Shown in pieces: positions 1,486 through 54,039 of a stretch of 62,838 nt of DNA. Location of the stretch: positions 1 through 62,838 of the forward strand of contig ONBJ01000001.1 in NCBI GenBank assembly GCA_900316025.1, written 5' to 3'. Below the pieces are notes generated by a model, which was given only the letters and a program-made list of their open reading frames with translations, was not told the DNA's origin and did not search any database. Made by a program: the position numbers and the translations under genes. Every line of letters starts with the position of its first letter. The stretch's first letter is position 1. Source of the DNA: an uncultured Eubacteriales bacterium (GTDB lineage Bacteria > Bacillota > Clostridia > Oscillospirales > Acutalibacteraceae).

Positions 1486-1587
1486 GGGGGCGATTGCCGT
1501 CCCCGTGAAGAATTTCACGGGCATTCACCTTGCTTTGCAAGGTGAACAATCAAAATACTTCGTATTTTGATTGCGGCAATCGCCCCC
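1486..1587. repeat. Three-arm cloverleaf repeat, copy 1
   Basis: Outer inverted repeat GGGGGCGATTGCCG (1486-1499) with CGGCAATCGCCCCC (1574-1587). The interior holds three hairpins: CCCGTGAA/TTCACGGG, TTCACCTTGC/GCAAGGTGAA and AATCAAAATAC/GTATTTTGATT, with loops of 3-4 nt. It lies between the rib promoter and the 3' end of yfbR. Seven further copies occur in the window. Confidence 0.9.
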
Positions 1588-1637
1588 ACTTTGGTTTCAG
1601 ATACAGCCTTGGTTCAGGTCAGTATAAAAAAATGGGT

Positions 1638-2225
1638 TTATTTTTGTTCATCAAGAGTAAGCTCATATGCCGGGAACATCTCCTGCATAAAGACTTTAAC
1701 CTCGGGCAAATCGATTTTTTCTATAGCTCTGAGCTTTGACTGCTTTATCTTTGAGTACTCGGCATTACCCATAATAAGCTCTTCCGTACATTTTATAAGT
1801 GCGGATATGGTATCGGCAGCCTTTACATATTTCCACAGCAGAAGTTCGTCCTCATTCTCGCAGAGTATACTTTTGTATTCTGCGGCTATATCATCGGGAA
1901 GCATTTTGAGCAGACTTAGCCTTGCCTGTTCTTCAAGCTCTTTATAGGCATTGGTTATGGTACGGTTATCATATTTTACAGGTGTAGGCAAATCTCCCGT
2001 TATTATTTCGCTTACATCGTGAAACATAGCAAGCACAGCAAGACGTTCGGGATTTATACTTCCGTCAAACCTCTTGTTGTTTATTACGCCCAGTGCGTGG
2101 GCCACCATTGCAACTTCAAGAGAATGCTCGCTTAAATTTTCGTTTCTCGTATTTTTCATCAGTCCCCATCGATGAATATACTTAATCCTCGACATCATAG
2201 CATAAAAGCTGTATATCTCACTCAT
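1638..2225 (-). CDS. yfbR: YfbR-type 5'-deoxynucleotidase (HD domain)
   Basis: Hydrolyses deoxyribonucleoside 5'-monophosphates in the cytosol, helping nucleotide balance. The 195-residue product matches E. coli YfbR closely in length and motifs: RWGLM, ENLSEHSLEVAMVAHAL (metal-binding His), MFHDVSEIITGDLPTPVKY (HD motif) and a late KAADTISALIKC helix. It is the last gene of a minus-strand run after DUF1877 (31-bp gap) and DUF1015. Nothing in the sequence shows its regulation. Confidence 0.9.
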   Translation of the reverse strand: MSEIYSFYAMMSRIKYIHRWGLMKNTRNENLSEHSLEVAMVAHALGVINNKRFDGSINPERLAVLAMFHDVSEIITGDLPTPVKYDNRTITNAYKELEEQARLSLLKMLPDDIAAEYKSILCENEDELLLWKYVKAADTISALIKCTEELIMGNAEYSKIKQSKLRAIEKIDLPEVKVFMQEMFPAYELTLDEQK

Positions 2226-2256
2226 ATTACCACTCTTTTAAATCATAAAATCTAAA

Positions 2257-2745: not shown

Positions 2746-2768
2746 AATAATTACTCCAAAGCGAAAAA

Positions 2769-4052: not shown

Positions 4053-4113
4053 AACAAAATCTCTCCTTAAAATAAAGAATAATTTATAATCTGAACAAGC
4101 TTAAAAGCTCAAT

Positions 4114-5382: not shown

Positions 5383-5415
5383 TACTTATACTTTTAGGTG
5401 AGGCTGATTAAAAAT

Positions 5416-5892
5416 ATGAACGCTTCAAAAAAACTCGTGAAAAAAGAAAAGCTCTCAGAGCTTATAAGCGAAACAATAAAATATGAAAACGGTGTATTTT
5501 ACCTCACAGTAACTGGAACAAGTATGACTCCTACGCTTTACTCGGACAGTTCCTCTGTAGCTCTTGTTTCAGTCGAAAGAAAGCCTGTAAGAAAATACGA
5601 CATAGTTCTTTTTAAAAGAGATAACGGAGATATAGTTCTGCACAGAGTAATAAAAATCCTGTCTGACGGACAACTTCTCATCAACGGTGACAGTCAGGTA
5701 TGGACGGAAACAGTAAAGGCGGAAAACATAATAGCAGTTGTAAAAAGCTATAACAAGAACAACAGAGCTGTAAAGTGCAGCGGTATACGCTTTTTCTGCA
5801 AATCGGCAGTATGGTGTTTACTGCGGCCTTTTCGTCCGAAAATATTCAAACTTTCGGCAACCTTAAAGCGTTTTATCCGCTTTAAAAATTAG
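5416..5892 (+). CDS. Soluble S24/S26 signal-peptidase-like protein
   Basis: A 158-residue protein with the S26 fold. The nucleophile region reads VTGTSMTPTLYSD. Where bacterial signal peptidases use a Lys general base it has DIVLHRVIKI, the His form seen in SipW and ER-type signal peptidases. A later INGDSQ box fits the family. Unlike SipW it has no N-terminal membrane anchor; only a weakly hydrophobic C-terminal stretch (RFFCKSAVWCLLRPF) is present. The ATG at 5416 follows AGGTGAGG; a GTG at 5398 has no ribosome site. No obvious substrate or maturation partner lies next to it. Confidence 0.75.
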   Translation: MNASKKLVKKEKLSELISETIKYENGVFYLTVTGTSMTPTLYSDSSSVALVSVERKPVRKYDIVLFKRDNGDIVLHRVIKILSDGQLLINGDSQVWTETVKAENIIAVVKSYNKNNRAVKCSGIRFFCKSAVWCLLRPFRPKIFKLSATLKRFIRFKN

Positions 5893-5954: not shown

Positions 5955-6056
5955 TGCGGCGATTGCAGTCGTCAAAAGCATAGCTTTTGACAAATTTAAA
6001 AGCTATGCTTTTAAATTTCCTCGTGAATTTATTCACGAGGGACTGCAATCGCCGCA
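5955..6056. repeat. Three-arm cloverleaf repeat, copy 2
   Basis: A perfect 16-bp outer stem, TGCGGCGATTGCAGTC (5955-5970) with GACTGCAATCGCCGCA (6041-6056). The interior is tiled exactly by three hairpins at 5971-5991 (GTCAAAAGC arms), 5992-6018 (AAATTTAAAAGC arms) and 6019-6040 (CCTCGTGAAT arms), leaving no unpaired bases between them. It sits between convergent genes. Confidence 0.9.
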
Positions 6057-6090: not shown

Positions 6091-6840
6091 TTATCCTATA
6101 AACATCTGAACCCAGTATTTTATACCGTTATGTTCGTAGTATCCAATACCTATGCCACTGAAATTACCATTCAGAACGTTAGCTTTATGTCCTTCCGAGT
6201 TCATCCAGCCTTTAACAACTGCTTCAGGTGAGGTATATCCTGATGCAATATTTTCTCCGAGGAAGCGATAAGAGATATTTTTTTCTTTAACTACCGAGAA
6301 GCAATCCTGACCGTTAGGACGGGTATGAGAAAATGTTTGAGAAATTTCCATAGCTCTTATATTTGCCACACCGCACATATCCTCTCTTTTTACCAACTGA
6401 TTAAGTCCAGCCTTTTCACGTTCAATATTAGTCAGACGTACAACTTCGTCTATGTAAGATGAGGCGGCATTATCATCGTTTTCCGTATTCTGAGGGACTG
6501 TCGGTTCAGTTGCAGCTTCGTGAGGAGCAGTATCATCATTATTATCATTGTTGGTATAGGGAATATCTGTAGGATTTTCAACATCATTAATACTGTTTTC
6601 TTCTGATGAAGGTACTGTATTACAATTTTGGTTAAAAAGCAAACAACAATTATTTGATATGCTTTGCGGTGAAAGTTTGTCTGTACAGTTAGCTGTGTTA
6701 GAAATACATATCACCTTACAATTTGAATCCTGAAATATACAAGAGTACTCCGCACATGCTGCGATAGGTGTCAGCAACATAGCATAAGATATGGTTGCTG
6801 TGCATAAAACTGCCGATATTAATTTTTTGCCCTTTTTCAT
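6091..6840 (-). CDS. Secreted CAP-domain protein (SCP/PR1, YkwD-like) with Cys-rich N region
   Basis: Exported protein of 249 residues. The start MKKGKKLISAVLC and a hydrophobic stretch ending near AACA form a signal peptide; AGGAG precedes this ATG. Next comes a Cys-rich region with seven Cys in about 45 residues (about 30-75), then an acidic Thr/Pro/Asn linker, then a CAP domain with NIEREKAGL, FSHTRPNGQDCF, GENIASGY, VKGWMNSEGHKANVLN and a WVQMFIG end. CAP proteins of this type are common extracellular or spore-coat-associated proteins in Bacillota; the exact role is unknown. An upstream in-frame ATG at 6943-6945 would bury the signal peptide. Confidence 0.85.
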   Translation of the reverse strand: MKKGKKLISAVLCTATISYAMLLTPIAACAEYSCIFQDSNCKVICISNTANCTDKLSPQSISNNCCLLFNQNCNTVPSSEENSINDVENPTDIPYTNNDNNDDTAPHEAATEPTVPQNTENDDNAASSYIDEVVRLTNIEREKAGLNQLVKREDMCGVANIRAMEISQTFSHTRPNGQDCFSVVKEKNISYRFLGENIASGYTSPEAVVKGWMNSEGHKANVLNGNFSGIGIGYYEHNGIKYWVQMFIG

Positions 6841-6886
6841 AAAAACAACTCCTAAAAAATCTACAGTAATTTTATACTGTACAAAC

Positions 6887-6915
6887 ATAATACACCTAAA
6901 GCAGATAATTTTCAA
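6887..6915 (-). promoter_or_regulatory. Sigma-A promoter of the CAP-domain gene
   Basis: On the minus strand TTGAAA (6910-6915), 17-bp spacer, TATTAT (6887-6892). It lies about 45 bp before the chosen start and inside the extended upstream frame, which supports the downstream start. Confidence 0.65.
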
Positions 6916-7065
6916 TAAAATATTGAAATTACATATATTTTTCAAATTTTACATTATATAGCAATATTTTAATATTTATATAAAACCTCATAAAAGGATA
7001 CTTTTTATCGTTGGCTGTAAATTTTTTATTTGAAAATAACACCTTTAATTATTTTATACAAATAC

Positions 7066-8444: not shown

Positions 8445-9302
8445 TTATATTTCCTTGCCGTTCTCTGTTATGAAATTGTCTATAAGTCTGGTTTTTCCTA
8501 TATATACAGCTACGGCTGCAAGAATATCCCCATCTATATCTTCAACCTTTTCTACATCGGGAAAGCTCACTATTTCAACATAATCTATCTTTGCAAGCGG
8601 TTCGCTTTCGATAATATCAGATATACTCTTTTTTATTACGGAAGCACTTGTTTCTCCGCACAAAACCATTTTTCTGCCTTCCTCAAGAGCCTTATGCAGT
8701 ATGAGTGCAGCCTGTCTTTCATCTTTGCTGAGATAAACATTTCTTGAGCTTCTTGCCAGTCCGTCAGCCTCTCTTACTATAGGACAGCCTATAATCTCTA
8801 TATCAAAGTTCAAATCCCTTACCATTCTTTTTATAACGGCAAGCTGCTGTGCGTCCTTCTGTCCGAAGTATGCCTTGTCGGGAGAAGCTATGTTAAAAAG
8901 CTTTGAAACAACTGTGCATACACCTCTGAAATGTATGGGTCTGCTTTTTCCGCACAGTTCCTCCGAAGGGCCTGTCATATTAACAAATGTAGTTGCATTC
9001 GGAAAATACATTTCTTCTGTTGTCGGGTGAAAAATTACATCTGCTCCCTCCTGCTCGCAGACCTTTGCATCTCTTTCAATATCTCTGGGATAACTTTCCA
9101 AATCTTCCGTAGGTGCAAACTGTGTGGGATTGACAAAGTCGCTTACAATTACCCTGTCATTCTCCTTGCTTGCACGTCTTATAAGGCTTGCATGACCCTC
9201 ATGAAGATAGCCCATTGTGGGTACAAGACCTATGGTAAGTCCGCTTTTTTTCCATTCTTTTACAATCTCTCTTACTTCTGAAACAGTGCTTACGATTTTC
9301 AT
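8445..9302 (-). CDS. panC: Pantothenate synthetase
   Basis: Cytosolic ATP-dependent ligase joining pantoate and beta-alanine, 285 residues, normal length. Motifs: [18 protein letters not shown] with the HIGH-type site, [35 protein letters not shown] and the KMSKS-like region [11 protein letters not shown]. The start is preceded by AAGGAG. The gene is separated from panB by 166 bp that hold a three-arm cloverleaf, although both lie in one apparent operon. Confidence 0.97.
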
Positions 9303-9344: not shown

Positions 9345-9438
9345 GGCGATTGCAGGTGTCAAAAGATTTTCTTTTGACACTGTTTAAAGGTTTCACCTTT
9401 AAACATACCGCAGACTTGTCTGCGGTACTGCAATCGCC
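9345..9438. repeat. Three-arm cloverleaf repeat, copy 3 (inside pan operon)
   Basis: Outer stem GGCGATTGCAG (9345-9355) with CTGCAATCGCC (9428-9438). Three hairpins tile the inside at 9356-9380 (GTGTCAAAAGA arms), 9381-9405 (TGTTTAAAGGT arms) and 9406-9427 (TACCGCAGAC arms). It lies between panB and panC, which point the same way with no visible promoter between them, so it would be in the operon mRNA. Confidence 0.9.
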
Positions 9439-9468: not shown

Positions 9469-10296
9469 TTATTTTAAACCATCAACAACCTTACTGTCAA
9501 TATAGTATGTATGCTCCTCACACGGAAAGCTTCCGTTGTTTATCTCCTCGTGATAAGCTTTGAAGGCTTCTTTCATAGCTTCACCTACACTTGTATATTT
9601 CTTTACGAATTTCGGGGTAAAATCAGAAAACATTCCAAGCATATCCTGATAAACAAGAACCTGACCGTCACATTCAGAGCCTGCACCAATTCCTATTGTG
9701 GGGATTGTAAGCTCCTTTGTTATTCTCTCCGCCAGCTTTGACGGTATACACTCCAGTACCAGAGCGAAAGCTCCTGCTTTTTCTACGGCACGTGCATCGT
9801 CAAGAAGCTTCTGTGCTTTTTCGGCAGTCTTTCCCTGAACCTTGAAGCCTCCGAAAGCATTTATTGACTGAGGTGTCAGTCCCAGATGTGCCATAACGGG
9901 AATACCTGCATTTACTATAGCGGTTATCTGAGGACATACCTCCAGACCGCCCTCAAGCTTGACTGCATTTGCTCCTGCCTCTTTTACAAGTCTGCCTGCG
10001 TTTACAACGGCATCATAAACAGAGGTCTGATATGACATAAAGGGCATATCAATTACTACCATAGCATTTTTTGCACCTCTTGCAACAGCCGCTCCGTGAT
10101 GTATCATATCCTCCATAGTTACTGCAAGGGTATTTTCATATCCGAGCATAACATTTCCGAGCGAATCGCCTACCAGTATGGCATTTATTCCCGCTTCATC
10201 GATAAGCTTTGCCGTGGAGTAGTCATACGCAGTGAGCATACTTATTTTTGTTCCGTCTTTCTTGCTGTTCTGCATAGTTAAAACAGTATTTTTCAT
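9469..10296 (-). CDS. panB: Ketopantoate hydroxymethyltransferase
   Basis: Transfers a hydroxymethyl group from methylene-THF to 2-ketoisovalerate to give ketopantoate. Length 275, normal. Motifs: [58 protein letters not shown] and [22 protein letters not shown]. The start overlaps the stop of the upstream gene in an ATGA, so the two are translationally coupled; the upstream product probably uses PanB's product. Confidence 0.97.
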
Positions 10297-12260: not shown

Positions 12261-12911
12261 TCAGGATTTGAAAAAGTCAAGCTTTTTCTCTATGAATGAG
12301 AAAAGCAGAGTTAAAATTCCGCAGAACGCAAGGAAAAACAATGCCGAATAGAACAGCGGCCATATAAGTCCTTCCATTGAAAAATCCTTTGCATTCATCA
12401 GTATTTCAGGTATGGCAATAACACTGGCAAGCGATGTATCCTTGACAAGCGTTATGATTTCATTTCCGATAGGTGCGGTAATTCTTTTGATTACCTGAAG
12501 CAGAATTATTCTGAAAAATATGTGGGACTTTCTTAATCCGAGAACCTGTCCTGCCTCATACTGTCCCTTTGGTATCGATTCTATTCCCCCACGGTATATT
12601 TCTGAGAGGTAAGCAGAGTAGTTTATTACAAATGCAATAAGAGCCGCCTGCATTCTCGGAAAGCTTACCTGTCCGTCCGACATAAGCGGCGGTATGTAAA
12701 ATACTACAAACAACTGCAGCATAAGAGGTGTTCCCCTTATTATCCATACTACCGTTTTTGTGAGAAATTTAAGCGGTCTGAACTTCGACATAGAACCCAT
12801 AGATACTATAAGTCCTATGGGAAGTGCCAGAAGAAGCGTTATGATAAAGATAAAACAATTTTCACCGAACCCCTTGAAAAGCTGTTCGGTAACGTTTAAA
12901 AACTGTTCCAT
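12261..12911 (-). CDS. Polar amino acid ABC transporter, permease
   Basis: Inner-membrane permease of 216 residues, His/Glu/Gln/Arg/opine family, with about five helices. The ATPase-contact loop reads GQYEAGQVLGLRKSHIFFRIILLQ (EAA motif), and RGTPLMLQLFVVFY and LVKDTSLASVIAIPEIL are family signatures. It pairs with the ATPase downstream and the lipoprotein upstream. A cloverleaf repeat fills the 212-bp gap to the binding-protein gene and could lower expression of permease and ATPase relative to the binding protein (inference). Confidence 0.92.
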   Translation of the reverse strand: MEQFLNVTEQLFKGFGENCFIFIITLLLALPIGLIVSMGSMSKFRPLKFLTKTVVWIIRGTPLMLQLFVVFYIPPLMSDGQVSFPRMQAALIAFVINYSAYLSEIYRGGIESIPKGQYEAGQVLGLRKSHIFFRIILLQVIKRITAPIGNEIITLVKDTSLASVIAIPEILMNAKDFSMEGLIWPLFYSALFFLAFCGILTLLFSFIEKKLDFFKS

Positions 12912-12973: not shown

Positions 12974-13066
12974 GGCGATTGCAGATTCAAAAGCATTCGC
13001 TTTTGAATCCTTCAAGGCTACGCCTTGAAGTCCGAAGCAGCTTTGCTGCTTCGTTATGCAATCGCC
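12974..13066. repeat. Three-arm cloverleaf repeat, copy 4 (inside ABC operon)
   Basis: Outer stem GGCGATTGCA (12974-12983) with TGCAATCGCC (13057-13066), three arms at 12984-13009 (GATTCAAAAGC), 13010-13030 (CTTCAAGGC) and 13033-13053 (CGAAGCAGC). Outside the stem GCTACGCTCA and TGAGCGAAGC face each other, extending the inverted repeat. It separates the binding-protein gene from its permease. Confidence 0.9.
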
Positions 13067-13123: not shown

Positions 13124-13978
13124 TTATTTTGACTTGAGTATGAGCAAACTGTCAAGGTTATATTTCTTGCCTATCTTGTCAAGAGTACCGTCATCTGCAA
13201 CCTTCTGCATAGCCTCGTTAAGCTTTTTGAGAGTTTCTGTGCTGTCCTTTCTTATAGCAACTCCGTACTGCTCGGGAGCAAAGTCCTTGCCCTCCACAAC
13301 CTGAAGGTCTGAATAGTCTGAGCCTGAAGAAAGTGTTCCTATCGACATTACATAGTCTATAACCGCAATATCTGCCGTACCTGACTTTACCTCAAGAAGT
13401 GCCTTTGCCTGTGAATCTACAGAAACATATGAAGCGTCCTTGAAGAACTCGTACTCTTTGGCAACGTCCTCACCTGCTGATTTTTTCTCCGCAACAACCG
13501 TAGCGTCCTTTAAGTTTTCAGCTTTTGTGAATTTCTCGGCATTTTCCTTTTTGGTAACCATAACCTGTTTGTTTTCCATATATGGAACAGATATATCCAT
13601 ATTGGCTTTTCTTTCATCGGTTATTGTAAGACCGTTCCATATGCAGTCTATGGTTTTGGATTTAAGCTCAACCTCTTTTGAATCCCAGTCTATTTTCTGG
13701 AATACAGGCTTAACTCCCAGTTCCTTGCAGACACTCTCTGCAAATTCCGTTTCAAAGCCTGTCAGCTTGCCGCTGTCGTCCTTATAGTTCATAGGCTCAA
13801 AGTAGGTTATTCCTATGACAAGCTCACCCTTGTTTTTTATGTAGTCCCAGTCTGCGGAAGATGTCTGCGAAGTATTCGTTTTGGTGTCAGAGTTGGAATT
13901 TCCGCTTCCGCCTGAGCAGCCCGTCAGAGCTGTGACCGCCATAAGTGCTGATAACATAACTGCCGTAAATTTTTTCAT
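13124..13978 (-). CDS. Polar amino acid ABC transporter, substrate-binding lipoprotein (canonical)
   Basis: Extracellular lipoprotein of 284 residues (SBP_bac_3 family). Signal peptide with lipobox LTGC, then a Ser/Asn/Thr linker. Domain order is the usual one: lobe 1 start GELVIGITYFEPMNYKDDSGKLTG..., TITDERKANMDISVPY, hinge, lobe 2 (ATVVAEKKSAGEDVAKEY), then lobe 1 C-terminal helix LKKLNEAMQKVADDGTLDKIGKKY. It is the first gene of its operon and serves as an in-window reference for the permuted paralogue at 14164. Confidence 0.93.
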   Translation of the reverse strand: MKKFTAVMLSALMAVTALTGCSGGSGNSNSDTKTNTSQTSSADWDYIKNKGELVIGITYFEPMNYKDDSGKLTGFETEFAESVCKELGVKPVFQKIDWDSKEVELKSKTIDCIWNGLTITDERKANMDISVPYMENKQVMVTKKENAEKFTKAENLKDATVVAEKKSAGEDVAKEYEFFKDASYVSVDSQAKALLEVKSGTADIAVIDYVMSIGTLSSGSDYSDLQVVEGKDFAPEQYGVAIRKDSTETLKKLNEAMQKVADDGTLDKIGKKYNLDSLLILKSK

Positions 13979-15768: not shown

Positions 15769-16504
15769 TAATAATGAGGTTCTTATAAAAGTCGAAGAGC
15801 TTCGCAAATCCTTCGGGAAAAATGAGGTGCTTAAAGGTATCAATGCCGAAATCAGAAAAGGCGATGTTATGGTGGTTATCGGAGCTTCAGGTTCGGGAAA
15901 ATCTACTTTTCTGAGATGTCTTAATCTTCTTGAAGAGCCGACAGGAGGTCACATATTTTTTGAGGGTACGGATATTACGGACAAATCTGTAAACATCAAT
16001 TTACACAGACGTAAAATGGGTATGGTTTTTCAGCAGTTCAATCTTTTTCCTCATATGACTGTTCTCAGAAATATGACGCTTGCACCCTCGAAAATTCTGG
16101 GAATGAAGAAGGAAGAAGTTGAGGCAAAGGCTATACATCTTCTTGAAAAGGTAGGTCTTGCCGACAGACGTGACGCATATCCTTCACAGCTTTCGGGCGG
16201 TCAGAAGCAGAGAATTGCTATAGTCAGGGCATTGTGTATGAACCCCGATGTTATGCTTTTCGATGAACCCACATCAGCTCTTGACCCCGAAATGGTAGGA
16301 GAAGTTCTTGAGGTTATGAAGCAGCTCGCCAAAGACGGTATGACTATGGTTGTCGTTACTCACGAAATGGGCTTTGCCCGTGAGGTAGCAACTACTGTAG
16401 CTTTTGTCGACAACGGTGTTATTGTAGAACAGAACAATCCAAAGGATTTCTTTAACAATCCTCAGAATCCACGTCTTAAAGATTTTCTGTCGAAAGTTCT
16501 TTAA
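15758..16504 (+). CDS. Polar amino acid ABC transporter, ATP-binding protein
   Basis: ATPase of 248 residues, GlnQ type. Walker [11 protein letters not shown]-loop [16 protein letters not shown], signature [15 protein letters not shown], Walker [16 protein letters not shown]-loop VTHEMGFA. The start is taken as GTG at 15758, after AGGAGG at 15741-15747, inside the permease gene; the overlap suggests coupled translation. Together with 14164 and 15037 it forms a complete importer, and a strong terminator follows. Confidence 0.93.
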
Positions 16505-16554: not shown

Positions 16555-16644
16555 GTTTAAAGGTTTCACCCTTAAAAATCCTGACCAAAGGCTCTGCCTT
16601 TGGAAACCGCAAGCCTTTGAAAAGGCTTGACCTAAACTTTATGG
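16555..16644. repeat. Family-2 three-hairpin repeat (inverse of 60642-60731)
   Basis: Directly after the terminator come three hairpins: TTTAAAGGT/ACCCTTAAA, CCAAAGGC/GCCTTTGG and AAGCCTT/AAAGGCTT, then GACCTAAACTTTATGG. The same series in the opposite strand sense lies at 60642-60731 with few differences. Relative to the upstream gene both copies read terminator, arm C, arm B, arm A. Confidence 0.85.
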
Positions 16645-16739
16645 TTTCTTTATTTTTGTTTTTGACAATCGCATTTTGCAGTGAAAATTTTATCTGTCAA
16701 TTCAATTTTTGTACTAAACGTTATAATATGCTCTTTCGC

Positions 16740-16768: not shown

Positions 16769-16829
16769 CATAGTGCCGAAAAATCGTAAATACGTTAATT
16801 ATTGTGTATGAAAAGAGGTTGTAAAGGTA

Positions 16830-18099: not shown

Positions 18100-18137
18100 A
18101 TCAGGGCAAAGGTTAAAACGCCTTTGCCTTGATTTTT
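18100..18137 (+). terminator. Terminator between the EctB-like and ATP-grasp genes
   Basis: ATCAGGGCAAAGG and CCTTTGCCTTGAT form a 13-bp stem (one G-T pair) with an 8-nt loop, then TTTTTG. Only 27 bp remain before the ATP-grasp start, too few for a promoter, so that gene probably depends on read-through. Confidence 0.75.
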
Positions 18138-18164
18138 GATTATCAAATTAAAGGGGAGTTTATT

Positions 18165-19235: not shown

Positions 19236-19277
19236 ACTCTTTTGTCACAAAAGAAAACCTGCGGCTTCGCTCAGGCT

Positions 19278-19373
19278 GCGATTGCAGACGACAAAAGCGT
19301 TCCGCTTTTGTCAGATTTCAAGCAAAGCTTGAAATCTCGCTTCGGACAAATGTCCGAAGCGGTCTGCAATCGC
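19278..19373. repeat. Three-arm cloverleaf repeat, copy 5
   Basis: Outer stem GCGATTGCAGA (19278-19288) with TCTGCAATCGC (19363-19373). Arms at 19290-19312 (GACAAAAGCG), 19313-19337 (AGATTTCAAGC) and 19338-19361 (CGCTTCGGACA). GGCTTCGCTCAGGC lies just outside on the left only. An open frame crossing this repeat is not a gene. Confidence 0.9.
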
Positions 19374-19539: not shown

Positions 19540-19632
19540 TTTAATATAAAATCAAATCAAAGGTTAGGAAAAGTCAAAACCACAATAAAACAAAATTAAA
19601 CTTTTCTGTATCTTAAATCAGAGGTGATTTGT

Positions 19633-20088
19633 ATGAGAATAAGCGATCTGGTTGCGGAATATATAAAAAATATACTGGACGAAAGCAACGGTACTGCGGA
19701 AATTCAGCGTAATGAACTTGCAAACAACATCGGCTGTGTGCCAAGCCAGATAAATTATGTTATAAGCTCACGCTTTACTCAGGAAAACGGATATGTTGTC
19801 GAAAGCCGAAGAGGCGGCGGCGGATATATCAGAATAACCAGAGTACATCTTACTACCGAAAAAGGGGGAATTATAATGCACGTTGTAAACTCTGTAGGTG
19901 AAACCCTTGACGAAACATCAGCAAACTTCATTCTTGAAAACCTGATTTCGGGAAACATAATCCAAAAGGACACAGCAAGAATAATATCTGCCGGTATTTC
20001 GGAAAAGGCGTTCTCTCAGATACCCAAGGAACTGAGAAACAATGTAAGGTCTACTGTTTTCAAAAATATGCTTTTAACTCAGGTCTGA
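19633..20088 (+). CDS. ctsR: CtsR, class III heat-shock repressor
   Basis: DNA-binding repressor of clp genes, 151 residues. The N-terminal winged helix (MRISDLVAEYIKNILDE, VPSQINYVISSRFT) ends with the Gly-rich wing RRGGGGYIRI that reads the operator, and a C-terminal helical dimer domain follows. The ATG at 19633 follows AGAGGTGA; an in-frame GTG three codons earlier overlaps that ribosome site. First gene of ctsR-mcsA-mcsB-clpC. McsB is expected to inactivate CtsR under stress. Confidence 0.97.
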   Translation: MRISDLVAEYIKNILDESNGTAEIQRNELANNIGCVPSQINYVISSRFTQENGYVVESRRGGGGYIRITRVHLTTEKGGIIMHVVNSVGETLDETSANFILENLISGNIIQKDTARIISAGISEKAFSQIPKELRNNVRSTVFKNMLLTQV

Positions 20089-34899: not shown

Positions 34900-34903
34900 A
34901 TTG

Positions 34904-39557: not shown

Positions 39558-41798
39558 ATGTTTAAATTTTCAATGCCCGATTGTACGCTGAACATAAATG
39601 CGGCTGAAAATCTTGAACGTGCATCGGAAGAGCTTGACAAGCTTGCCTATGACGGAAATGATTTGGGTTCTGTGTATACTCCTGAAAGTACGTCTTTCAA
39701 GGTATGGTCTCCTACGGCTTCGGAGGTTACTCTGAACCTTTACAGAACCGGAAGTGACGCTGAGGAAGGTGCCGAAAATCTCGGAAGCTCACCTATGGGC
39801 TACGATGAAACAAACGGTGTATGGAGCGTTACCGCAGAGGGCGATTTAAAGAATGTTTACTATACTTATTCCGTAAAAAACGGTGATAAGGTCAGTGAGG
39901 TTACAGACATTTACGCAAAGGCTGTGGGAGTAAACGGCGACAGAGGAATGGTCGTTGAGCTGAAAGAAACCAATCCCGATGGCTGGAGCGAAGACAAGAG
40001 GGTTCTGCCTGAACATCAGACAGAGGCTGTCGTATGGGAGGTTCACGTAAGGGACTTTTCGGAAAATTCCAACAGCGGAGTAAGCGAGGTTCACCGTGGA
40101 AAATATCTTGCGTTTACGGAGCTTGAAACGGTATTGCCTGAGTTTCCTGATATTCCTACGGGAGTGCAGTACCTTAAAAGTCTGGGTGTAACGCACGTTC
40201 ATATAAATCCGATGTATGACTTCGGCTCTGTAGATGAAACAAAAGCAGGCTCAGATGAATATAACTGGGGATATGACCCTAAAAACTATAATGCTCCAGA
40301 GGGAAGCTATTCAACAAATCCTTATGACGGAAATGTAAGAATTAATGAGCTTAAACAGATGATACAGGCTCTGCACAGTCAGGGCTTGGGCGTTATTATG
40401 GACGTTGTATATAACCATACATACGAGAGTGAAGACAGCTTTTTCAATCTTACAGTTCCTAAGTATTACTACAGATTTAACAATGACGGAAGCTGGATGA
40501 CACACTCATTCTGCGGAGATGACACAGCGTCCGAAAGAGCTATGTACAGTAAGTTTATGGTGGATTCCGTTTACTACTGGGCAAGCGAATATCATCTGGA
40601 CGGTTTCAGGTTTGATATTATGAGTCTGCATGATGTGGACACTATGAGAAAAATCAGGGAAAAGCTTGATACCATAGACAGCAGAATAATGATATACGGC
40701 GAAGCGTGGGATATGGGCAAAGTTGAGGGCATAGAATTTGCAACTCAGAAGAACATATCAAAGCTTGAAAGAGTAGCCGCTTTCAATGACGGAATAAGGG
40801 ATTCCTTAAAGGGAAGCGTATTTGTTACCGATGAAAAAGGCTTTATACAGGGAGCAGGCGGTTCTGAAAAAGTTACTGCAGGCATTCTGGGAGCAACGGG
40901 CGAATGGGCTGATACCCCCGAAAGTACGGTTACGTTTATTTCCTGTCATGACAATATGACCCTGTATGACAAGCTTGTTGCAACGGTTCTCGGAACGGAG
41001 GACAGCTCACTTTACAGAAAGCGTAACGAAAAGGTTGTAGCTATGAACAAGCTTGGTGCAGCTATAATTTTTACGTCGCAGGGAATGCCCCTCATACTTG
41101 CAGGTGAGGAAATGGCTCGTTCAAAGGACGGAGAACATAACAGCTATAAGTCATCTCCTGAGCTTAATATGATTGACTGGAACAATCTTGCACAGTTCGG
41201 CGACCTTACAGCTTACTATAAGGGACTTATAGATTTGAGAAAGTGTTATGCACCTTTCAGCGACAGCACAAATACAACCATAAACAATATGCAGGTTTTT
41301 GAAGATACCGATGACTACACAATAGCAGTTGCTTACTGTAATCCTGTTGCTGACGATACTCAGTGGGATAAGGTTGTGTGCGTGTTCAACGGTGATACTG
41401 AAAAAGACATAGAGCTTGAAATTCAGGGCGAGGACTTACCCGAAAGCTGGGTAGTAGTTGTCAACAGTGAAAAAGCAGGAGTTGAAAGCTTAGGCTGTGT
41501 TGATAACTCAAAAGTACTTGTTCCGAAAAGTTCTGCGGTAGTTCTTGTTGACAAGGAAAGCTTTGACAAGGCTGCGGTAAAGGCAGATACAAAACTTAAA
41601 GATGTTCTTTGTGATGCCGCTTCAAAGTTTGCAGAAAAAAATACAAAGGCTATAGTAAAAGTGGAAGAGGATAAGAGCAAAAATAAGAGAAAGCATAAAA
41701 TTCTCAGAACAGCAGGTATTATAGCAGGCTCGGTAGCTGTTGCCGCAACGATTGCAGGTGTTGCCGTAGTCAGAAGCAGAAGAAAAAATAAGAAATAA
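39558..41798 (+). CDS. Type I pullulanase-like GH13 without signal peptide, C-terminal membrane anchor
   Basis: Debranching GH13 enzyme of 746 residues, cutting alpha-1,6 links in glucans. CBM48-like N domain (SFKVWSPTASEVTLNLY), the type I pullulanase motif YNWGYDPKNYN (about 234), DVVYNHTY, GFRFDIMSLHD (nucleophile Asp), IYGEAWDMG (acid/base Glu near 382) and ISCHDNMTLYD. The N-terminus MFKFSMPDCTLN is not a signal peptide, and AGGAGAAG fixes this start. The C-terminus has a single helix (TAGIIAGSVAVAATIAGVAVV, about 716-736) between basic clusters. It should therefore sit on the inner face of the membrane. Paralogue of the secreted enzyme downstream. Confidence 0.9.
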   Translation: MFKFSMPDCTLNINAAENLERASEELDKLAYDGNDLGSVYTPESTSFKVWSPTASEVTLNLYRTGSDAEEGAENLGSSPMGYDETNGVWSVTAEGDLKNVYYTYSVKNGDKVSEVTDIYAKAVGVNGDRGMVVELKETNPDGWSEDKRVLPEHQTEAVVWEVHVRDFSENSNSGVSEVHRGKYLAFTELETVLPEFPDIPTGVQYLKSLGVTHVHINPMYDFGSVDETKAGSDEYNWGYDPKNYNAPEGSYSTNPYDGNVRINELKQMIQALHSQGLGVIMDVVYNHTYESEDSFFNLTVPKYYYRFNNDGSWMTHSFCGDDTASERAMYSKFMVDSVYYWASEYHLDGFRFDIMSLHDVDTMRKIREKLDTIDSRIMIYGEAWDMGKVEGIEFATQKNISKLERVAAFNDGIRDSLKGSVFVTDEKGFIQGAGGSEKVTAGILGATGEWADTPESTVTFISCHDNMTLYDKLVATVLGTEDSSLYRKRNEKVVAMNKLGAAIIFTSQGMPLILAGEEMARSKDGEHNSYKSSPELNMIDWNNLAQFGDLTAYYKGLIDLRKCYAPFSDSTNTTINNMQVFEDTDDYTIAVAYCNPVADDTQWDKVVCVFNGDTEKDIELEIQGEDLPESWVVVVNSEKAGVESLGCVDNSKVLVPKSSAVVLVDKESFDKAAVKADTKLKDVLCDAASKFAEKNTKAIVKVEEDKSKNKRKHKILRTAGIIAGSVAVAATIAGVAVVRSRRKNKK

Positions 41799-41832: not shown

Positions 41833-41929
41833 TGCGATTGCAGTCTTCAAAAGCGTTCGCTTTTGAACGCTCCGAGGGTTTCACCCTCGGAGTGCCTTGC
41901 GGATTAATCCGCAAGGGGCTGCAATCGCA
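41833..41929. repeat. Three-arm cloverleaf repeat, copy 7 (between pullulanases)
   Basis: Outer stem TGCGATTGCAG (41833-41843) with CTGCAATCGCA (41919-41929), arms at 41846-41867 (TTCAAAAGCG), 41870-41892 (CTCCGAGGGT) and 41895-41916 (CCTTGCGGAT). Outside it TCGCTCA and TGAGTGA, with GGC and GCC beyond, extend the inverted repeat. Confidence 0.9.
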
Positions 41930-42046: not shown

Positions 42047-45000
42047 GTGAAACTAAATAAAATAATCGCTGCTATGCTTGCAGTAATGATGGTTGGCACA
42101 ACCGCTTCGGTAGCCGTATCAGCGGCTGACCCCGAAAGTGCTAATCCCTACGAAGCACAGGCAGCAGCATATGATGCACAGGCATATGCTGGAAATGACT
42201 TGGGTGCTGTTTACACACCCGAAAAGACCACTTTCAAGCTGTGGTCACCGTCCGCACAGAGCGTAAAGCTTAACCTTTACACAAAGGGAAGTGATGCAGA
42301 AAACGGAGCATTGAAGCTTCAAAGCTTGAATATGACAAAGAGTGATAATGCTGTATGGAGTATTACCGTATCAAGTGACCTGAAAAATATGTACTATACC
42401 TACAGCGTTACAAACAACGGCAGAACCGAAGAAACAGTTGACCCTTATGCAAAGGCAGTAGGTGTAAACGGTGAAAGAGGTATGATAGTAGACCTCGACA
42501 GTACCGACCCTGCAAACTGGGATAATGACACCGCTTTCCAGAGAGTTGCAAATCAGAGTGACGCATCTGTATGGGAAGTTCATGTAAAGGACTTTTCCTA
42601 TGATGCAAGCTCAGGCGTAAGCGAGGCAAACCGTGGCAAGTATCTTGCATTCACTGAGGAAAATACAACACTCAACGGAGAGGGCAAGCTTTCCACAGGC
42701 ATTAAGTATCTCAAAGAGCTTGGAATAAACTATGTTCAGATAAACCCGTTCTATGACTACGGTTCAGTAGATGAAACAGGTTCGGATACGCAGTTCAACT
42801 GGGGATATGACCCTAAGAACTACAACGCACCCGAGGGAAGCTATTCATCAAACCCCTATGACGGTAATGTAAGAATTAACGAAACAAAGCAGATGATACA
42901 GAGTCTGCACAACAACGGAATGGGAGTAATTATGGACGTTGTATACAACCATACATACTCATCGGATTCCGTATTCCAGAAAACAGTTCCCGACTATTAC
43001 TACAGAATTAATGCTGACGGAAGCTTCTCAAACGGCTCAGGCTGCGGTAACGATACAGCTTCAGAACGTGAGATGTACAGAAAGTATATGGTAGATTCCG
43101 TAACCTACTGGGCAAAGGAATACCACATTGACGGTTTCAGATTTGACCTTATGGGACTGCACGATGTTCAGACAATGAACGAAATCCGTGCGGCTCTCGA
43201 TGAAATTGACCCCGACATCATAGTTTACGGTGAGGGCTGGTCATTGTCATCAACATTTGACAGAGGAGCAGTACCTGCTGCACAGGCAAATTCAAAGCAG
43301 CTCAACAGCCGTGTAGGCTGCTTCAACGACCAGATACGTGACGGACTTAAGGGAAGCGTATTCCAGTCAAAGGGCAAGGCTTATATTCAGGGCGACAAGA
43401 CGGCTGCAAAGGCTGTATATCTCGGATTGCTTGCAAATACTCCCAGAGGCGGAAACTGGCAGTCAACAACTCCTGAGCAGACAGTAACATATGCTTCATG
43501 TCACGATAATGCTACACTTTATGACCGTCTTGTTTATTCAATGGGCGGAGATTTCACAGAGCGTTATGATTCATACATCAAGATGAACAAGCTCAGTGCA
43601 GCAACAGTATTCGCTTCACAGGGCGTTGCATTTATGCTCGCAGGTGAGGAGTTCGCAAGAACAAAGATAGGCGATGAGAACAGCTATTCATCATCACCCG
43701 ATGAGAATAAGCTCGACTGGAACAGAACAGTAGATTATGCTGACCTTCTCTCATACTACAAGGGTATGCTTGAATTCAGAAACTACTTTGAGCCTGTAAG
43801 AACACCCGTAAAGCTTGACAGCGTAACAGGTGAATATTCTACAGAAACAGGTATTGTAAAGGTTGTATACGCAGACCAGAACTTTGCTTGGAAAAATGTT
43901 GTAATACTCCTTAATGACTCAACCGAAGATCAGGTTGTTACTCTCGAAAGCACTCTGCCCGACAAGTGGGTATCCGTTGTAAACGGAGATATGGCAGGTA
44001 TCACGGCTATTGATGAGTTCTCAGGCAGAGATATTACAGTTCCCGCAGGTGAACCCCTCATTCTCGTTGACAAGAACAGCTATACTTCAGCAGGTCAGGC
44101 TCCTGCAAAGGGTGTAGTTGAGGTTCAGCACGTTGACGAAGTTACAGGTGCAGTTCTTTCCTCATACGTTATCACAGGAAAAGTAGGCGAATATTACGCA
44201 ACAAAGCCCAGCTCAAGCTTTGAGCTTGACTACAACCTGAGCAGCCGCTCAGACAACACTGAAGGCTACTTCACAAGTAATAAGACAGTTGTAAAATATA
44301 TGTATAAGCCCAATACCGTTAAGTTCAACGATGTGAACGGTGACGGAAGAGTAAGCCTTATAGACGCTGTTCTTATGCAGAAGTATATAATGGGTCTTAA
44401 AACACTCACAGCTCAGCAGATAGAAAATGCTGATGTAAATATGAACGGTAAGGTAGACCTTGCTGACGTAGTTCTTATTCAGAGAGCTTTGCTCGGCTAT
44501 CCCGCACCCAAGGCTATAGGTACTCTCACAGTATCTTATGTTGACGAGGACGGCAACAAGCTCCAGAAAGATTTGGTTGAAAAGAGAAAAGCAGGTCAGT
44601 CTTATGAAACTTCACCTGCAGAAATCAACTACTATTCATTGGTTGAGGACAGACTTCCCGACAATGCAACAGGAAAAATATCTGTAGGCAACACAGTTGT
44701 AACATATGTTTACAAGCTTAATGCACTTACTTCAACTATAAAGGTTAAGATGCCCGAGGGTTCAACAGATGTTCCCAATCTCTATGTATGGGAAGAGGGC
44801 AGCAGTACTCCTAACTGCGGAGCTTGGCCCGGTACAGCTATGACTGCTGCAAGTGACGGCTGGTATGAGGCTTCATTCGCAACATCAGGCACATATAACT
44901 GGATTGTAAACTATGGTTCAACCCAGACACCCGATATGATTGGTTACAGCGGCAACCAGTGGGTTATTATGGCTGAGGACGGAACTCCTACAGTAGCTAC

Positions 45001-45316
45001 AACTACGGTTAATGTAAAAATGCCTGCAGATGTAGACTGGACTCCTTACCTCTATGTATGGCAGACATCTGTTCAGACAGGTGACAGAGATTTCAACCCT
45101 CTCGGAAACTGGGCTGGTGCTCAGATGACTGACTTTGATAAGGACGGCTGGTATACAGCAAGCTTCTATTGTCAGGGCAGCGGCTCATACAACTGGATTG
45201 TAAACAACAATGCAGGTGTTCAGACCGCAGACAATACCGATGTTACAGGTTCTATATGGGTAGTTATGGCAGACGCTACAACTCCTGCTTCTGTTACACC
45301 CGATAAGCCCGAATAA
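42047..45316 (+). CDS. Secreted type I pullulanase with dockerin and starch-binding modules
   Basis: Extracellular GH13 debranching enzyme of 1089 residues. Signal peptide (1-27), CBM48-like domain, catalytic barrel with FNWGYDPKNYN (about 250), GFRFDLMGLHD, VYGEGWSL (about 394) and ASCHDNATLYD (about 483). Then a MucBP-like domain (about 689-755), a type I dockerin (about 758-823) with two Ca loops starting DVNGDGRVSL and DVNMNGKVDL, a second MucBP-like domain, and two C-terminal Trp-rich starch-binding modules of CBM26 type (about 896 and 985 on). The start is GTG after GGGGAGGA. The dockerin should plug it into a cohesin scaffold as in R. bromii amylosomes. Confidence 0.93.
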   Translation: MKLNKIIAAMLAVMMVGTTASVAVSAADPESANPYEAQAAAYDAQAYAGNDLGAVYTPEKTTFKLWSPSAQSVKLNLYTKGSDAENGALKLQSLNMTKSDNAVWSITVSSDLKNMYYTYSVTNNGRTEETVDPYAKAVGVNGERGMIVDLDSTDPANWDNDTAFQRVANQSDASVWEVHVKDFSYDASSGVSEANRGKYLAFTEENTTLNGEGKLSTGIKYLKELGINYVQINPFYDYGSVDETGSDTQFNWGYDPKNYNAPEGSYSSNPYDGNVRINETKQMIQSLHNNGMGVIMDVVYNHTYSSDSVFQKTVPDYYYRINADGSFSNGSGCGNDTASEREMYRKYMVDSVTYWAKEYHIDGFRFDLMGLHDVQTMNEIRAALDEIDPDIIVYGEGWSLSSTFDRGAVPAAQANSKQLNSRVGCFNDQIRDGLKGSVFQSKGKAYIQGDKTAAKAVYLGLLANTPRGGNWQSTTPEQTVTYASCHDNATLYDRLVYSMGGDFTERYDSYIKMNKLSAATVFASQGVAFMLAGEEFARTKIGDENSYSSSPDENKLDWNRTVDYADLLSYYKGMLEFRNYFEPVRTPVKLDSVTGEYSTETGIVKVVYADQNFAWKNVVILLNDSTEDQVVTLESTLPDKWVSVVNGDMAGITAIDEFSGRDITVPAGEPLILVDKNSYTSAGQAPAKGVVEVQHVDEVTGAVLSSYVITGKVGEYYATKPSSSFELDYNLSSRSDNTEGYFTSNKTVVKYMYKPNTVKFNDVNGDGRVSLIDAVLMQKYIMGLKTLTAQQIENADVNMNGKVDLADVVLIQRALLGYPAPKAIGTLTVSYVDEDGNKLQKDLVEKRKAGQSYETSPAEINYYSLVEDRLPDNATGKISVGNTVVTYVYKLNALTSTIKVKMPEGSTDVPNLYVWEEGSSTPNCGAWPGTAMTAASDGWYEASFATSGTYNWIVNYGSTQTPDMIGYSGNQWVIMAEDGTPTVATTTVNVKMPADVDWTPYLYVWQTSVQTGDRDFNPLGNWAGAQMTDFDKDGWYTASFYCQGSGSYNWIVNNNAGVQTADNTDVTGSIWVVMADATTPASVTPDKPE

Positions 45317-51224: not shown

Positions 51225-51225
51225 A

Positions 51226-53826
51226 CTATTTCACCATATTATAAGTAACATTTAAAAATTTTACGGCTTCCGTACCGACAACAGCCTTATCCGAAAATAC
51301 TCCGCTTATAACAGTACCGTCACCGCAGTATATGACACCGCTGCCCGATGCAATACCGTTCAGGAAAGAACCTGTATACCTGTGGTCGGAATAAAGTATA
51401 GTTCCTTTTCCGCACGGAATGCCGTCCTTGAGCTGTCCTGAGTATACTCCCGAAAGCATAGGCTGTTCAACGACAAATTCTCTTGCCTGTCGGAATTTTT
51501 CGTATTCGGTATCTTTAAGCTTTGAAATATATTCAAGTTCGGGCATTTCTCTCAGTGAAACCTTCATACTTTTCAGCGGCTCTCCGTTTTTGAAAATACC
51601 CTCAAAGAGTTTTTCGCCGTATTCGGTAAAGGTACAGCCCATACCCGACCTTAAATCTCCTTTTACGTTTCCGTCATATATTACGCTCATACCGTCCTTT
51701 GAGTATTCCCTCATATATTCGCATTCGCCGTTTTTATAGATACACTCCTTTATAAGAATACCGTCCTTGATAACGTTTATACGTCCGTCGGGAGAACCCT
51801 CGGAAAAAGAACCTGCCATAGAAATACCGTTTTCAAGCTTGAGCAGACCCGCTCCGCTGTACTTACCGTTTTTCCACATTCCGGAATAGACTTCCCTGCC
51901 GTTTTCATAGCTTATTCCGAAATCTGAAAATATATCATTCTCAAATGTACCCATATACACACATTCGCCGTTCTGATAAAGTCTGCCTGTTCCTGACCTT
52001 ACCCCCTCAGAAAGCTGTCCGTCATACACTTTAACTCCGTTACTGTAGCATATTCCGCTGCCGTCAGGTTTATTATTCAGAACCGTTCCGCTGTAATTAA
52101 TCATACCGTTTTCATCGTATACGGTTATTTTTCCCTTTGCCTGACCGTTTGTAAATTTACCGTCGCTGTAGCTTCCGTCATCGTTATACAGCCTGCCGTC
52201 ACCGTTATAAAGTCCTTTTTTCCAGCTTCCTGTATATATGGTTGCTCCCGAAGAGTTTTTCAGCTCTCCCCTGCCCGACGGCATTCCTGCAAGAAATTCT
52301 CCTGTATATACATTTCCGTTTTCGTATATGAGCATACCGTTTCCGCTGTAAAGATTGCGTCTGAACTCGCCCTTATATTTTATGCTTCCGTCCTCATTAA
52401 AAAGAGTTCCTTCTCCGTCCATACTTCCGTTTTTATAGTCGCCGCTGTAGAGAAGTATTCCGTCTGCTGATATTACAGTTCCTTTTTGCTGCTGTTCTCC
52501 GTTTCTGCTTTTAGCTATAAAAATTTCTCCGTTTTCGGGATTGATACTTATTCCTCCCGATTTTTCGCCGTATCTGCTTCCTGCATATACAAGACTTCTG
52601 TTTTTGTCAAATTTTGCAAAGATAAAATTCCTTTCTCCGTCACAGAAATCCGCAACGGTTATACCTCCGTCAACCGCTCTGAATTCTATACCGAAACCGT
52701 TCTTTTTGCCGTCAATGTAGCTGCCTGCATAAGCTATTTTTCCGCTTTTGAAAAATGTTACACCGAAACCGTTCTTTTTATCGTCAAGATATTCTCCCTC
52801 ATAAAGCGTTTTTCCTGAAAGCGTCTGTGTTCTTCCACTGCCAGAACGCTTTCCGTCCGAGGTAAGCTCTCCGAAGTACAATCCTTTTTCTTTTGCGGAT
52901 ATATTTACAATCTTATCCGCAGAAACCGTGTAATCTGTATTTCCGCCTGCAATTCTTTTCTGAGGAATTTCCTCTGTGAAAGAGGCTTCTTCTTCCTCAT
53001 CTTCAGGCTGTTCCTCTGCTTCATTATCATCGGGTTTGACAATAGTTTCTGAAACAGGCAATACCGCCGCTGCCGAATATCCTGTGAATATATCTTCTGT
53101 ATCTGCAAGATTTCGGAAGTCTGTATCTTTATCCAGTGCCGAAATATCAAAATACTGCTTTATTTCCGCATTTGTTACGTTTTCCTCCGATGTTTCCTCG
53201 TCTTCTCCCGAAAGAATGGTTTCCCACTGTTTTTCAAGCTCCTCATCGCCGAAGTAGTACTTTATGTTGTTTACTGTAGCAGATACAGACGGCTGACAAA
53301 GCATAGCTGCCTGCTCAACGTCATATTCGCTGTCCGACATAGGAAGTGCGTAAAGTATCTGAGGAAATGAGGTTTCTCCGTCATAAACGGCTATAGCTGC
53401 TCTGTCATCATTCAGCCACGGCATAAGCGATATTACAGGCTCGCTCTGATTTCTTTCAAAATATTCAGTCTTTTGCCATATGTGGGAATGATTGAAGTAC
53501 ATCTTTTTCCGTATGAAGCCTGACTGCTCCCTGTAAATTATTATATACCCTGCCGGCTCTGCTACTGCTTCTTCGGATAATATTCCATTTTCCAACGCTC
53601 TCCATTTAAGCTTTCCTCTTGCGTCAATACGGTACATATACGAATATCTGCTGCCGTTGACGGAAAATGAAATTTTATCCTTTACCGTTTTTCCTCCGCC
53701 TGCAAAGTATCTGTTTCTTGCGTCTGTAAGTATATCCGCAGGAACGGTGTAAAGTTCTTTTTCATTGTAAAAAACATTGAGATATATACAGGTTTTATCC
53801 AAATCCCGACTATAATTATTTTTCAT
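51226..53826 (-). CDS. Large MORN-repeat protein
   Basis: Cytosolic protein of 866 residues without signal peptide or membrane helix. The first ~220 residues form an unrecognised domain with aromatic strands (SYMYRIDARGKLKWRA), followed by an acidic segment (EDEEEEASFTEE). From about 315 to the end there are roughly twenty MORN-type repeats of 20-23 residues, such as YEGEYLDDKKNGFGVTFF, YSGDYKNGSMDGEGTLFN and YTGEFLAGMPSGRGELKN. In eukaryotes MORN repeats bind membrane lipids or dimerise. Here it leads the operon with mscS and a GT-C-like gene. GGGGAGGAG precedes the ATG. Confidence 0.85.
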   Translation of the reverse strand: MKNNYSRDLDKTCIYLNVFYNEKELYTVPADILTDARNRYFAGGGKTVKDKISFSVNGSRYSYMYRIDARGKLKWRALENGILSEEAVAEPAGYIIIYREQSGFIRKKMYFNHSHIWQKTEYFERNQSEPVISLMPWLNDDRAAIAVYDGETSFPQILYALPMSDSEYDVEQAAMLCQPSVSATVNNIKYYFGDEELEKQWETILSGEDEETSEENVTNAEIKQYFDISALDKDTDFRNLADTEDIFTGYSAAAVLPVSETIVKPDDNEAEEQPEDEEEEASFTEEIPQKRIAGGNTDYTVSADKIVNISAKEKGLYFGELTSDGKRSGSGRTQTLSGKTLYEGEYLDDKKNGFGVTFFKSGKIAYAGSYIDGKKNGFGIEFRAVDGGITVADFCDGERNFIFAKFDKNRSLVYAGSRYGEKSGGISINPENGEIFIAKSRNGEQQQKGTVISADGILLYSGDYKNGSMDGEGTLFNEDGSIKYKGEFRRNLYSGNGMLIYENGNVYTGEFLAGMPSGRGELKNSSGATIYTGSWKKGLYNGDGRLYNDDGSYSDGKFTNGQAKGKITVYDENGMINYSGTVLNNKPDGSGICYSNGVKVYDGQLSEGVRSGTGRLYQNGECVYMGTFENDIFSDFGISYENGREVYSGMWKNGKYSGAGLLKLENGISMAGSFSEGSPDGRINVIKDGILIKECIYKNGECEYMREYSKDGMSVIYDGNVKGDLRSGMGCTFTEYGEKLFEGIFKNGEPLKSMKVSLREMPELEYISKLKDTEYEKFRQAREFVVEQPMLSGVYSGQLKDGIPCGKGTILYSDHRYTGSFLNGIASGSGVIYCGDGTVISGVFSDKAVVGTEAVKFLNVTYNMVK

Positions 53827-53942
53827 TTTTCTCCTCCCCAGACCTACAATAAACCAATTATAATACTACTACATTATTACAAATTTTTCAAGAATTTATA
53901 TGACATCTTGTACGTAAAAGAATAGCCATACCTGAGCGGTGA

Positions 53943-54039
53943 GGCGATTGCAGACGAAAAAAGACTTGTCTTTTTTCGTAAAAAAACGCTTATGCGTTTT
54001 TGCGGCTCGTGGAAAATTCCACGAGCCTCTGCAATCGCC
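53943..54039. repeat. Three-arm cloverleaf repeat, copy 8
   Basis: Outer stem GGCGATTGCAGA (53943-53954) with TCTGCAATCGCC (54028-54039). Arms: CGAAAAAAGAC (53955-53978), an AAAAAACGC arm (about 53980-54003) and GGCTCGTGGAA (54004-54027). It lies between divergent genes, upstream of the dusB promoter. Confidence 0.9.

Follow-up and report, generated by a model that had tools for sequence, protein, structure and literature searches.

The window analysed here, 62,838 nt of contig ONBJ01000001.1 from genome GCA_900316025.1 (2.08 Mb; labelled G000), carries eight copies of a small repeat that we call the cloverleaf, in which an outer stem closes around three hairpins. The copies lie beside the following open reading frames (ORFs):

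Copy 1, 1486-1587 (102 nt): roughly 50 nt beyond the stop codon of ORF 1638-2225 (minus strand).
Copy 2, 5955-6056: between the convergent ORFs 5398-5892 (plus strand) and 6091-6945 (minus strand).
Copy 3, 9345-9438: between ORFs 8445-9302 (minus strand) and 9469-10296 (minus strand, ketopantoate hydroxymethyltransferase domain).
Copy 4, 12974-13066: between ORFs 12261-12911 and 13124-13978 (both minus strand, transport-system domains).
Copy 5, 19278-19373: between ORFs 18129-19178 and 19624-20088 (both plus strand).
Copy 6, 21662-21759: 10 nt past ORF 20623-21651 (plus strand, ATP:guanido phosphotransferase domain).
Copy 7, 41833-41929: 34 nt past ORF 39558-41798 (plus strand, alpha-amylase domain).
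Copy 8, 53943-54039: between ORFs 51226-53826 (minus strand, MORN repeats) and 54133-55122 (plus strand, dihydrouridine synthase domain).

The first-pass annotation had described eight copies, each with an outer inverted repeat and three hairpins, and motif pairs, folding and a pairing-only detector all bear this out. The motif GGCGATTGCMG, allowing at most one mismatch, has 16 matches in the window that form eight inverted pairs, against a mean of 1.35 and a maximum of 5 matches in 100 shuffles of the window. RNA folding gives an outer stem and exactly three hairpins in 8/8 copies. DNA folding gives this design in every copy too, with z-scores of -11 to -17, and for each copy none of 200 shuffles folds as well. 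A detector that relies on pairing and is blind to sequence returns exactly these eight as three-arm structures; it finds no two- or four-arm structures in the window and no two- or three-arm structures in five first-order Markov shuffles of it. A second, fold-based finder adds a weak two-branch fold at 16809-16904 (-17.8 kcal/mol). A chance origin of the cloverleafs is rejected by the shuffle counts, the shuffle folds and the pairing-only detector.

Two window copies have features of note beside them. An FMN riboswitch at 1270-1383 (minus strand), the only Rfam match above threshold in the window, flanks copy 1 on the side opposite ORF 1638-2225. The large ORF preceding copy 7 (39558-41798), which carries the alpha-amylase domain, shares stretches that are 71-84% alike with the large ORF at 42047-45316; judged from these sequences, the pair is a tandem duplication.

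The family extends far beyond the window. The pattern GCGATTGC N60-90 GCAATCGC occurs at 156 sites in G000 (reversed control, 0) and at 165 in the sister species G001, and at 0, 1, 0 and 0 sites in four further members of the genus (G002-G005). A covariance model, the check proposed in the first-pass annotation, finds at least 150 copies in G000, at least 149 in G001, a single copy in G003 and no copy in G002, G004 or G005; at most 150 candidates per genome were scored, so the two large figures are floors. The G003 copy has a three-arm fold, and it may be misbinned because its contig includes 674 bases that are 86% like G000 and the genome is 7% contaminated. Twenty stretches of G002-G005 (259,674 bases) contain no three-arm structure. 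Among 300 genomes of the family (135 genera), a stricter pattern has no carriers other than G000 and G001, and in 394 genomes of the order the covariance model matches only its own genome (strict filters, at most 10 candidates scored per genome). We reject a wider spread: of at least 61 matched contig stretches listed, the 15 from outside G001 do not fold into the design, and the sole match on a viral contig, L226 (IMG/VR), proves to be chromosomal DNA with 99.7-99.8% identity to G000, whose cloverleafs match the three on L226 letter for letter. The first-pass annotation had named as refuting a genome search with only eight copies and arms no better paired than shuffled sequence; the genome-wide count and the shuffle folds show the opposite. 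In the genomes searched, the family is confined mostly to two sister species.

The anatomy of the element was read from 976,649 bases of G000 and 883,790 bases of G001, about half of each genome, in which three-branch folds under -40 kcal/mol were called as elements. This gave 104 three-arm elements in G000 and 102 in G001. Motif pairs fall within called elements in 84/84 cases in G000 and 85/87 in G001 (169/171 combined), and the two outside are also elements: L116 561-652, a three-arm structure whose call gave way to an overlapping fold, and the G001 counterpart of window copy 7. Both ends of 197/206 called copies bear GCGATTGC or one of its listed variants; the other nine have no motif or variant on one side, and not all of these belong to the family. 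This fold-based finder also returns 14 two- or four-branch folds under -40 kcal/mol (6 and 1 per genome), one of which overlaps a true copy. Half-motifs outside called elements number 4/151 and 12/161, some of them from cut or missed elements.

The core is about 95 nt long and consists of an outer stem of roughly 8-15 bp bearing GCGATTGC/GCAATCGC, which encloses three abutting hairpins with arms mostly of 20-28 nt. Outer-stem variants such as GCGATTTC, GCGGTTGC and GCGGCTGC are paired on both sides. Among 173 orientable copies, CAAAAGC words abound in slot A, TTCAAG words in slot B, and CGGAC or GGCAG words in slot C. Arms with the same core are scarce except in slot A, which speaks against arms as freely shuffled modules. 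Conserved composition reaches about 20 nt beyond the element ends noted earlier, on both sides, as a degenerate, G+C-richer box with words such as CGGCTTCG and CGTCAGCA; the left box of copy 5, for example, is CGGCTTCGCTCAGGC (19262-19276). The boxes face mostly inward (117 vs 15 of 390 flanks, with the box pattern chosen from the same data). Beyond them the sequence is A/T-rich, in nearly symmetric tracts whose start lies some 20 nt from the outer motif at either end; in an intrinsic terminator, a U-tract would come right after the stem on its downstream side. In some elements, L078 8109-8251 and L191 18400-18518, the outer stem is far longer, stays perfectly paired and continues across the flanking boxes.

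Pairing in the arms is almost entirely of the Watson-Crick type. A strand-symmetric parse of 602 arms, which admits at most two mismatches per arm, counts 6243 Watson-Crick pairs among 6285 (99.3%), with 14 G-T (0.2%), 11 A-C and 17 other pairs. By comparison, 24 tRNAs from the same stretches have 34 G-U in 517 pairs (6.6%). When tandem copies are oriented by their upstream gene, this parse gives 7 G-T vs 5 A-C; an earlier oriented count gave 10 vs 12, and it leans to G-T because RNAfold chose the arms. Counts from unoriented ortholog arms (11 G-T, 12 A-C) are uninformative on RNA and were left aside. Wobble pairs are normally tolerated in an RNA under selection, so the near-absence of wobble pairs makes the maintenance of the arms look DNA-like. 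A DNA hairpin or cruciform looks like the best fit to these data. This agrees with the cruciform part of the protein-binding cruciform suggested in the first-pass annotation, in which the protein is a candidate.

The position of the copies relative to genes was determined with a longest-ORF rule in intergenic regions of at least 120 nt, and the placement figures are approximate because of that rule. Copies occupy 67/225 tandem, 15/52 convergent and 4/67 divergent regions in G000, and 60/197, 12/45 and 7/68 in G001. Divergent regions are thus avoided (4/67 and 7/68 vs 82/277 and 72/242 tandem or convergent; Fisher 1.6e-5 and 8e-4), and window copy 8 is one of the few divergent placements. A coding origin is rejected, given that 181 of 206 called copies are intergenic, 10 lie at stretch ends and 15 are inside ORFs as drawn by this crude rule. 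Tandem copies sit a median of 34 nt from the upstream stop codon. A crude scan found separate terminator-like sites in 48/123 tandem regions with a copy vs 145/269 without (p 0.007), and in 9/24 vs 38/65 convergent regions (p 0.10). A run of four T follows 51% of 134 tandem copies, vs 43% with the mirror run upstream. Element orientation relative to the gene is 69 vs 50 (p 0.10).

Such placement would suit an RNA element at mRNA 3' ends, with the cloverleaf terminating transcription or shielding the mRNA from exonucleases, as proposed for REP repeats. The short distance past the stop codon in tandem regions, the avoidance of divergent regions, the fewer terminator-like sites in tandem regions that hold a copy and the excess of downstream T runs all speak for it. 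The pairing data speak against it, since G-T makes up 0.2% of arm pairs vs 6.6% for G-U in tRNAs, and gene-oriented arms show no visible tolerance of wobble, although these numbers are small. Orientation relative to the gene is weakly biased at most, and the T-run asymmetry is small. We regard an RNA role as possible, if somewhat unlikely. The structured-RNA option of the first-pass annotation agrees with the position after genes and disagrees with the scarcity of wobble pairs.

The two carrier species permit a comparison of individual sites. Aligned blocks of at least 1500 nt have a median identity of 87.5% (31 blocks, first set of stretches). Mapped sites are occupied in the other species in 40/47 cases from G000 and 38/43 from G001; 57 G000 and 59 G001 copies were unmapped, since about half of each genome was sampled. 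Copy 3 corresponds to L137 19763-19856 in G001 and copy 7 to L168 at about 15991-16088, where the fold is partly disturbed. A check by eye showed that the site of copy 7 (41833) is occupied, that L182 5748 maps badly and that L155 16509 belongs to another repeat family. After this check nine mapped sites are without the element; none is a clean insertion and three retain an element remnant. The comparison of sites with and without the element, as the first-pass annotation had proposed, thus revealed mostly shared occupancy and no clean insertion ends. One pair outside the mapped orthologs, L093 16788 and L105 11845, agrees letter for letter in all three arms across the two species and looked like a possible transfer. 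The left flanks are 83% alike, whereas in G001 the right flank is found only after about 2.9 kb of other DNA. We reject a transfer here, as the flanks show that both species share the site and that other DNA was inserted next to it.

Many changes in the stems are coupled. Across 40 ortholog pairs, 1092 arm base pairs are unchanged, 54 are changed on both sides and still Watson-Crick, and 51 are changed on one side (87 gapped pairs and 7 that are not Watson-Crick in G000 were set aside). With 6.6% of arm sites changed, about 5 coupled changes are expected if sites are independent, and the observed number is about 10 times chance. In the outer stem, whose sides are about 75 nt apart, 468 pairs are unchanged, 8 coupled and 10 one-sided. 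Coupled changes comprise 28 transitions and 34 transversions, a ratio near that of the flanks (351 and 408), so there is no sign of a path through G-U.

Rates of change differ along the arm. They were measured in 96 of 120 ortholog arms, after 19 with unequal length parity and 5 with less than 60% identity had been set aside. Apical stems (positions 3-7 from the arm centre) are changed at 12/960 sites (1.25%), positions 8-9 at 23/384 and tips (positions 0-1) at 115/340 (34%), with 759/4024 (19%) in non-coding and 705/5853 in coding flanks. We conclude that the stems are under strong constraint and the tips are free. Same-slot arms of different copies differ at 39-77% at most stem positions and at 8-17% at the A-rich core of slot A, figures that are inflated by centre alignment, whereas ortholog arms differ by 0-25% position by position, mostly by a few percent. 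The earlier statement that structure is kept and sequence is not therefore holds between copies, but when the two species are compared at a given locus, conservation of the apical stems is strong.

Two further observations concern the tips and a shared arm variant. Tip inversions occur at 11/120 orthologous arms and account for 10/31 comparable changed tips. We reject them as proof of hairpin processing, because the family's tip pool predicts 7.3, and the pool may itself contain inversion products. The paired variant AACTTTC/GAAAGTT is present in 5/14 related copies in G000 (L188 6579, L079 1868, L090 1100, L089 16462 and L084 12793) and in 0/18 in G001. Three of the five belong to ortholog pairs, in which the G001 ortholog has AAATT. 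This distribution hints at exchange between copies.

These observations could be read as the marks of a selfish or fossil miniature element without host function, whose arms are homogenised and whose spacers are inverted by template switching. Template switching is described as homogenising inverted repeats in PMC8604942, and the coupled changes and tip inversions match the signature given there; the restriction of AACTTTC/GAAAGTT to one species, with three ortholog pairs, fits as well. Under template switching alone, however, stems should drift near the neutral rate, and the rate in apical stems is 15-fold below that of non-coding flanks. The outer stem has coupled changes as well, the 10 tip inversions are not clearly above expectation, and half-motif remnants are few. 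We consider this explanation distinctly unlikely, while template switching could add to a DNA-like maintenance of pairing.

Dispersal at more than 150 sites implies past spreading. Y1 transposases (PF01797) have no match in G000 or G001, and three in G002 and one in G004, both of which are without the repeat. Direct-repeat words of 5-9 nt that would mark a target-site duplication show no excess across 195 copies, and no pair of sampled copies within one genome has two identical arms. With most mapped sites also occupied in both species, the movement as single-stranded DNA suggested in the first-pass annotation finds no support, and from its overall interpretation it is the real, high-copy, structured family that stands. 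Divergence between copies is far above that between orthologs, yet the other genus members are without the family. Either the spreading is old and the family was lost in relatives, or the arms diversified at birth or by exchange. Integron attC core sites have the form RYYYAAC/GTTRRRY. A folded single-strand recombination or insertion site of the attC kind, at which a recombinase would read the stem and not the arm letters, would explain the variable interior, the conserved outer motif and the near-perfect single-strand folding, but it is very improbable, as the outer stem GCGATTGC/GCAATCGC does not fit that core when compared by eye and the copies are dispersed between ordinary genes.

The first-pass annotation knew of no named family with this design, and we found none. 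Rfam has no family at gathering threshold on the copies, its matches up to E 1 miss all eight, and literature searches returned no family of this design among the matches listed. Several known elements share single features. The bcr1 element of the Bacillus cereus group is a dispersed repeat with a conserved fold, and by description it resembles the cloverleafs in both respects. The double-hairpin and other repetitive hairpin elements of mitochondria, which are thought to be mobile, are also dispersed hairpins; they are two-hairpin designs of organelle genomes and are likened here from their descriptions. Parvovirus inverted terminal repeats and attC sites also fold as single strands, with inner arms inside an outer part that is conserved, a likeness that lies in the folded strand. 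Miniature inverted-repeat transposable elements have terminal inverted repeats, as do the 197 cloverleafs with the motif or a variant on both sides; an excess of target-site duplications, clean empty sites and near-identical recent copies were not found among the copies and sites compared here.

Small intergenic repeats of other bacteria are also comparable. REP/BIME elements, as PMC3733652 describes them, are numerous short palindromic intergenic repeats that tend to follow genes and to lie where the neighbouring ORFs are co-directional or convergent. Cloverleafs are also mostly downstream of genes and few lie between divergent ones. The REP/BIME unit, however, is a 20-40 bp hairpin with an unpaired GTAG or CGTC tag, whereas the cloverleaf, at about 95 nt, closes into a four-way junction made up of an outer stem and three arms, and its arms vary while remaining paired. 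CGTCAGCA stands in 23 flanks as one word of the boxes among others, and is not a general tag. A REP/BIME system with RAYT would be expected to include a Y1 transposase, and neither cloverleaf carrier has a PF01797 match. The pneumococcal BOX, RUP and SPRITE repeats are portrayed in PMC3049150 as lineage-restricted, high-copy and structured, with apparent past spread and few new insertions. The cloverleafs match this by description, being restricted to a lineage, abundant, structured and apparently spread earlier; they differ in apical stems that are strongly conserved at orthologous sites. We conclude that cloverleafs are a real and apparently unnamed family with an unusual structure, and that they fall into the wide class of small interspersed repeats.

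Other repeats occur in the same genomes. A second family of about 90 nt consists of hairpins in series with the words TTTAAGGG, CAAAGGC and CAAGCCTTT, and a closed two-arm repeat with a TTAAAA outer stem and an CCACTTTTT arm occurs in G002:

Second repeat family: window 16555-16648, 60642-60729, 55145-55193 and 34899-34937; L155 16509-16635.
G002 two-arm repeat: L118 17582-17657; L119 5519-5595; L120 9670-9745 and 12450-12518; L121 4452-4523 and 18448-18525.

BLAST matches of at least 70 nt to the second family number 78 in sampled G000 and 50 in sampled G001; stretches of G002, G003 and G004 also have matches, and those of G005 have none. The element at L155 16509 has a three-branch fold closed by the outer stem AACTTTGAC, and was rejected as a cloverleaf as it belongs to this second family. 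The G002 two-arm repeat looks like a design separate from the cloverleaf.

Our preferred reading of the cloverleaf, held tentatively and with a little less than even confidence, is a small interspersed repeat that probably spread once, is now mostly fixed and is selected for Watson-Crick pairing, more likely as a DNA hairpin or four-way junction than as RNA. The family would have spread in the common ancestor, probably as a non-autonomous mobile element. Copies would be retained for the ability of the strand to fold into a four-way junction with perfect pairing, which may form when the DNA is single-stranded during replication or negatively supercoiled during transcription. The outer GCGATTGC stem and flanking boxes may be read by a candidate protein of the host or of a mobile element, with the arms serving chiefly for pairing. 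Any effect would likely be a local one between adjacent genes, acting on topology, replication or transcript ends, in line with proposals for REP repeats.

Several points weigh against this reading. Position after genes and the fewer terminator-like sites in tandem regions with a copy also suit an RNA role, and template switching can couple both sides of a hairpin without selection. One-sided changes in orthologs are about as many as coupled ones (51 vs 54). Arm divergence between copies, far above that of orthologs, is unexplained by a single recent spread, and the letters of the apical stems are kept at each locus, although a need for pairing would not by itself demand this. A search limited to Y1 transposase found no protein partner. 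A bolder version of the DNA reading, in which the roughly 160 copies form a chromosomal system of perfectly paired single-strand four-way junctions, Holliday-junction look-alikes selected as DNA, we consider unlikely; in it a dedicated protein would recognise them by the outer GCGATTGC stem, and the letters of the arms would be largely free to differ from copy to copy.

Selection on the interspersed repeats of bacteria is seldom visible, though such repeats are many. Two genomes with more than 150 cloverleafs each, shared sites, coupled changes and scarce wobble pairs allow us to ask whether selection acts on DNA shape itself and not on RNA or sequence. If a protein reads the junction, the cloverleafs would represent chromosomal sites of a new kind; should their pairing instead be explained by template switching, they would be a rich natural record of that process.

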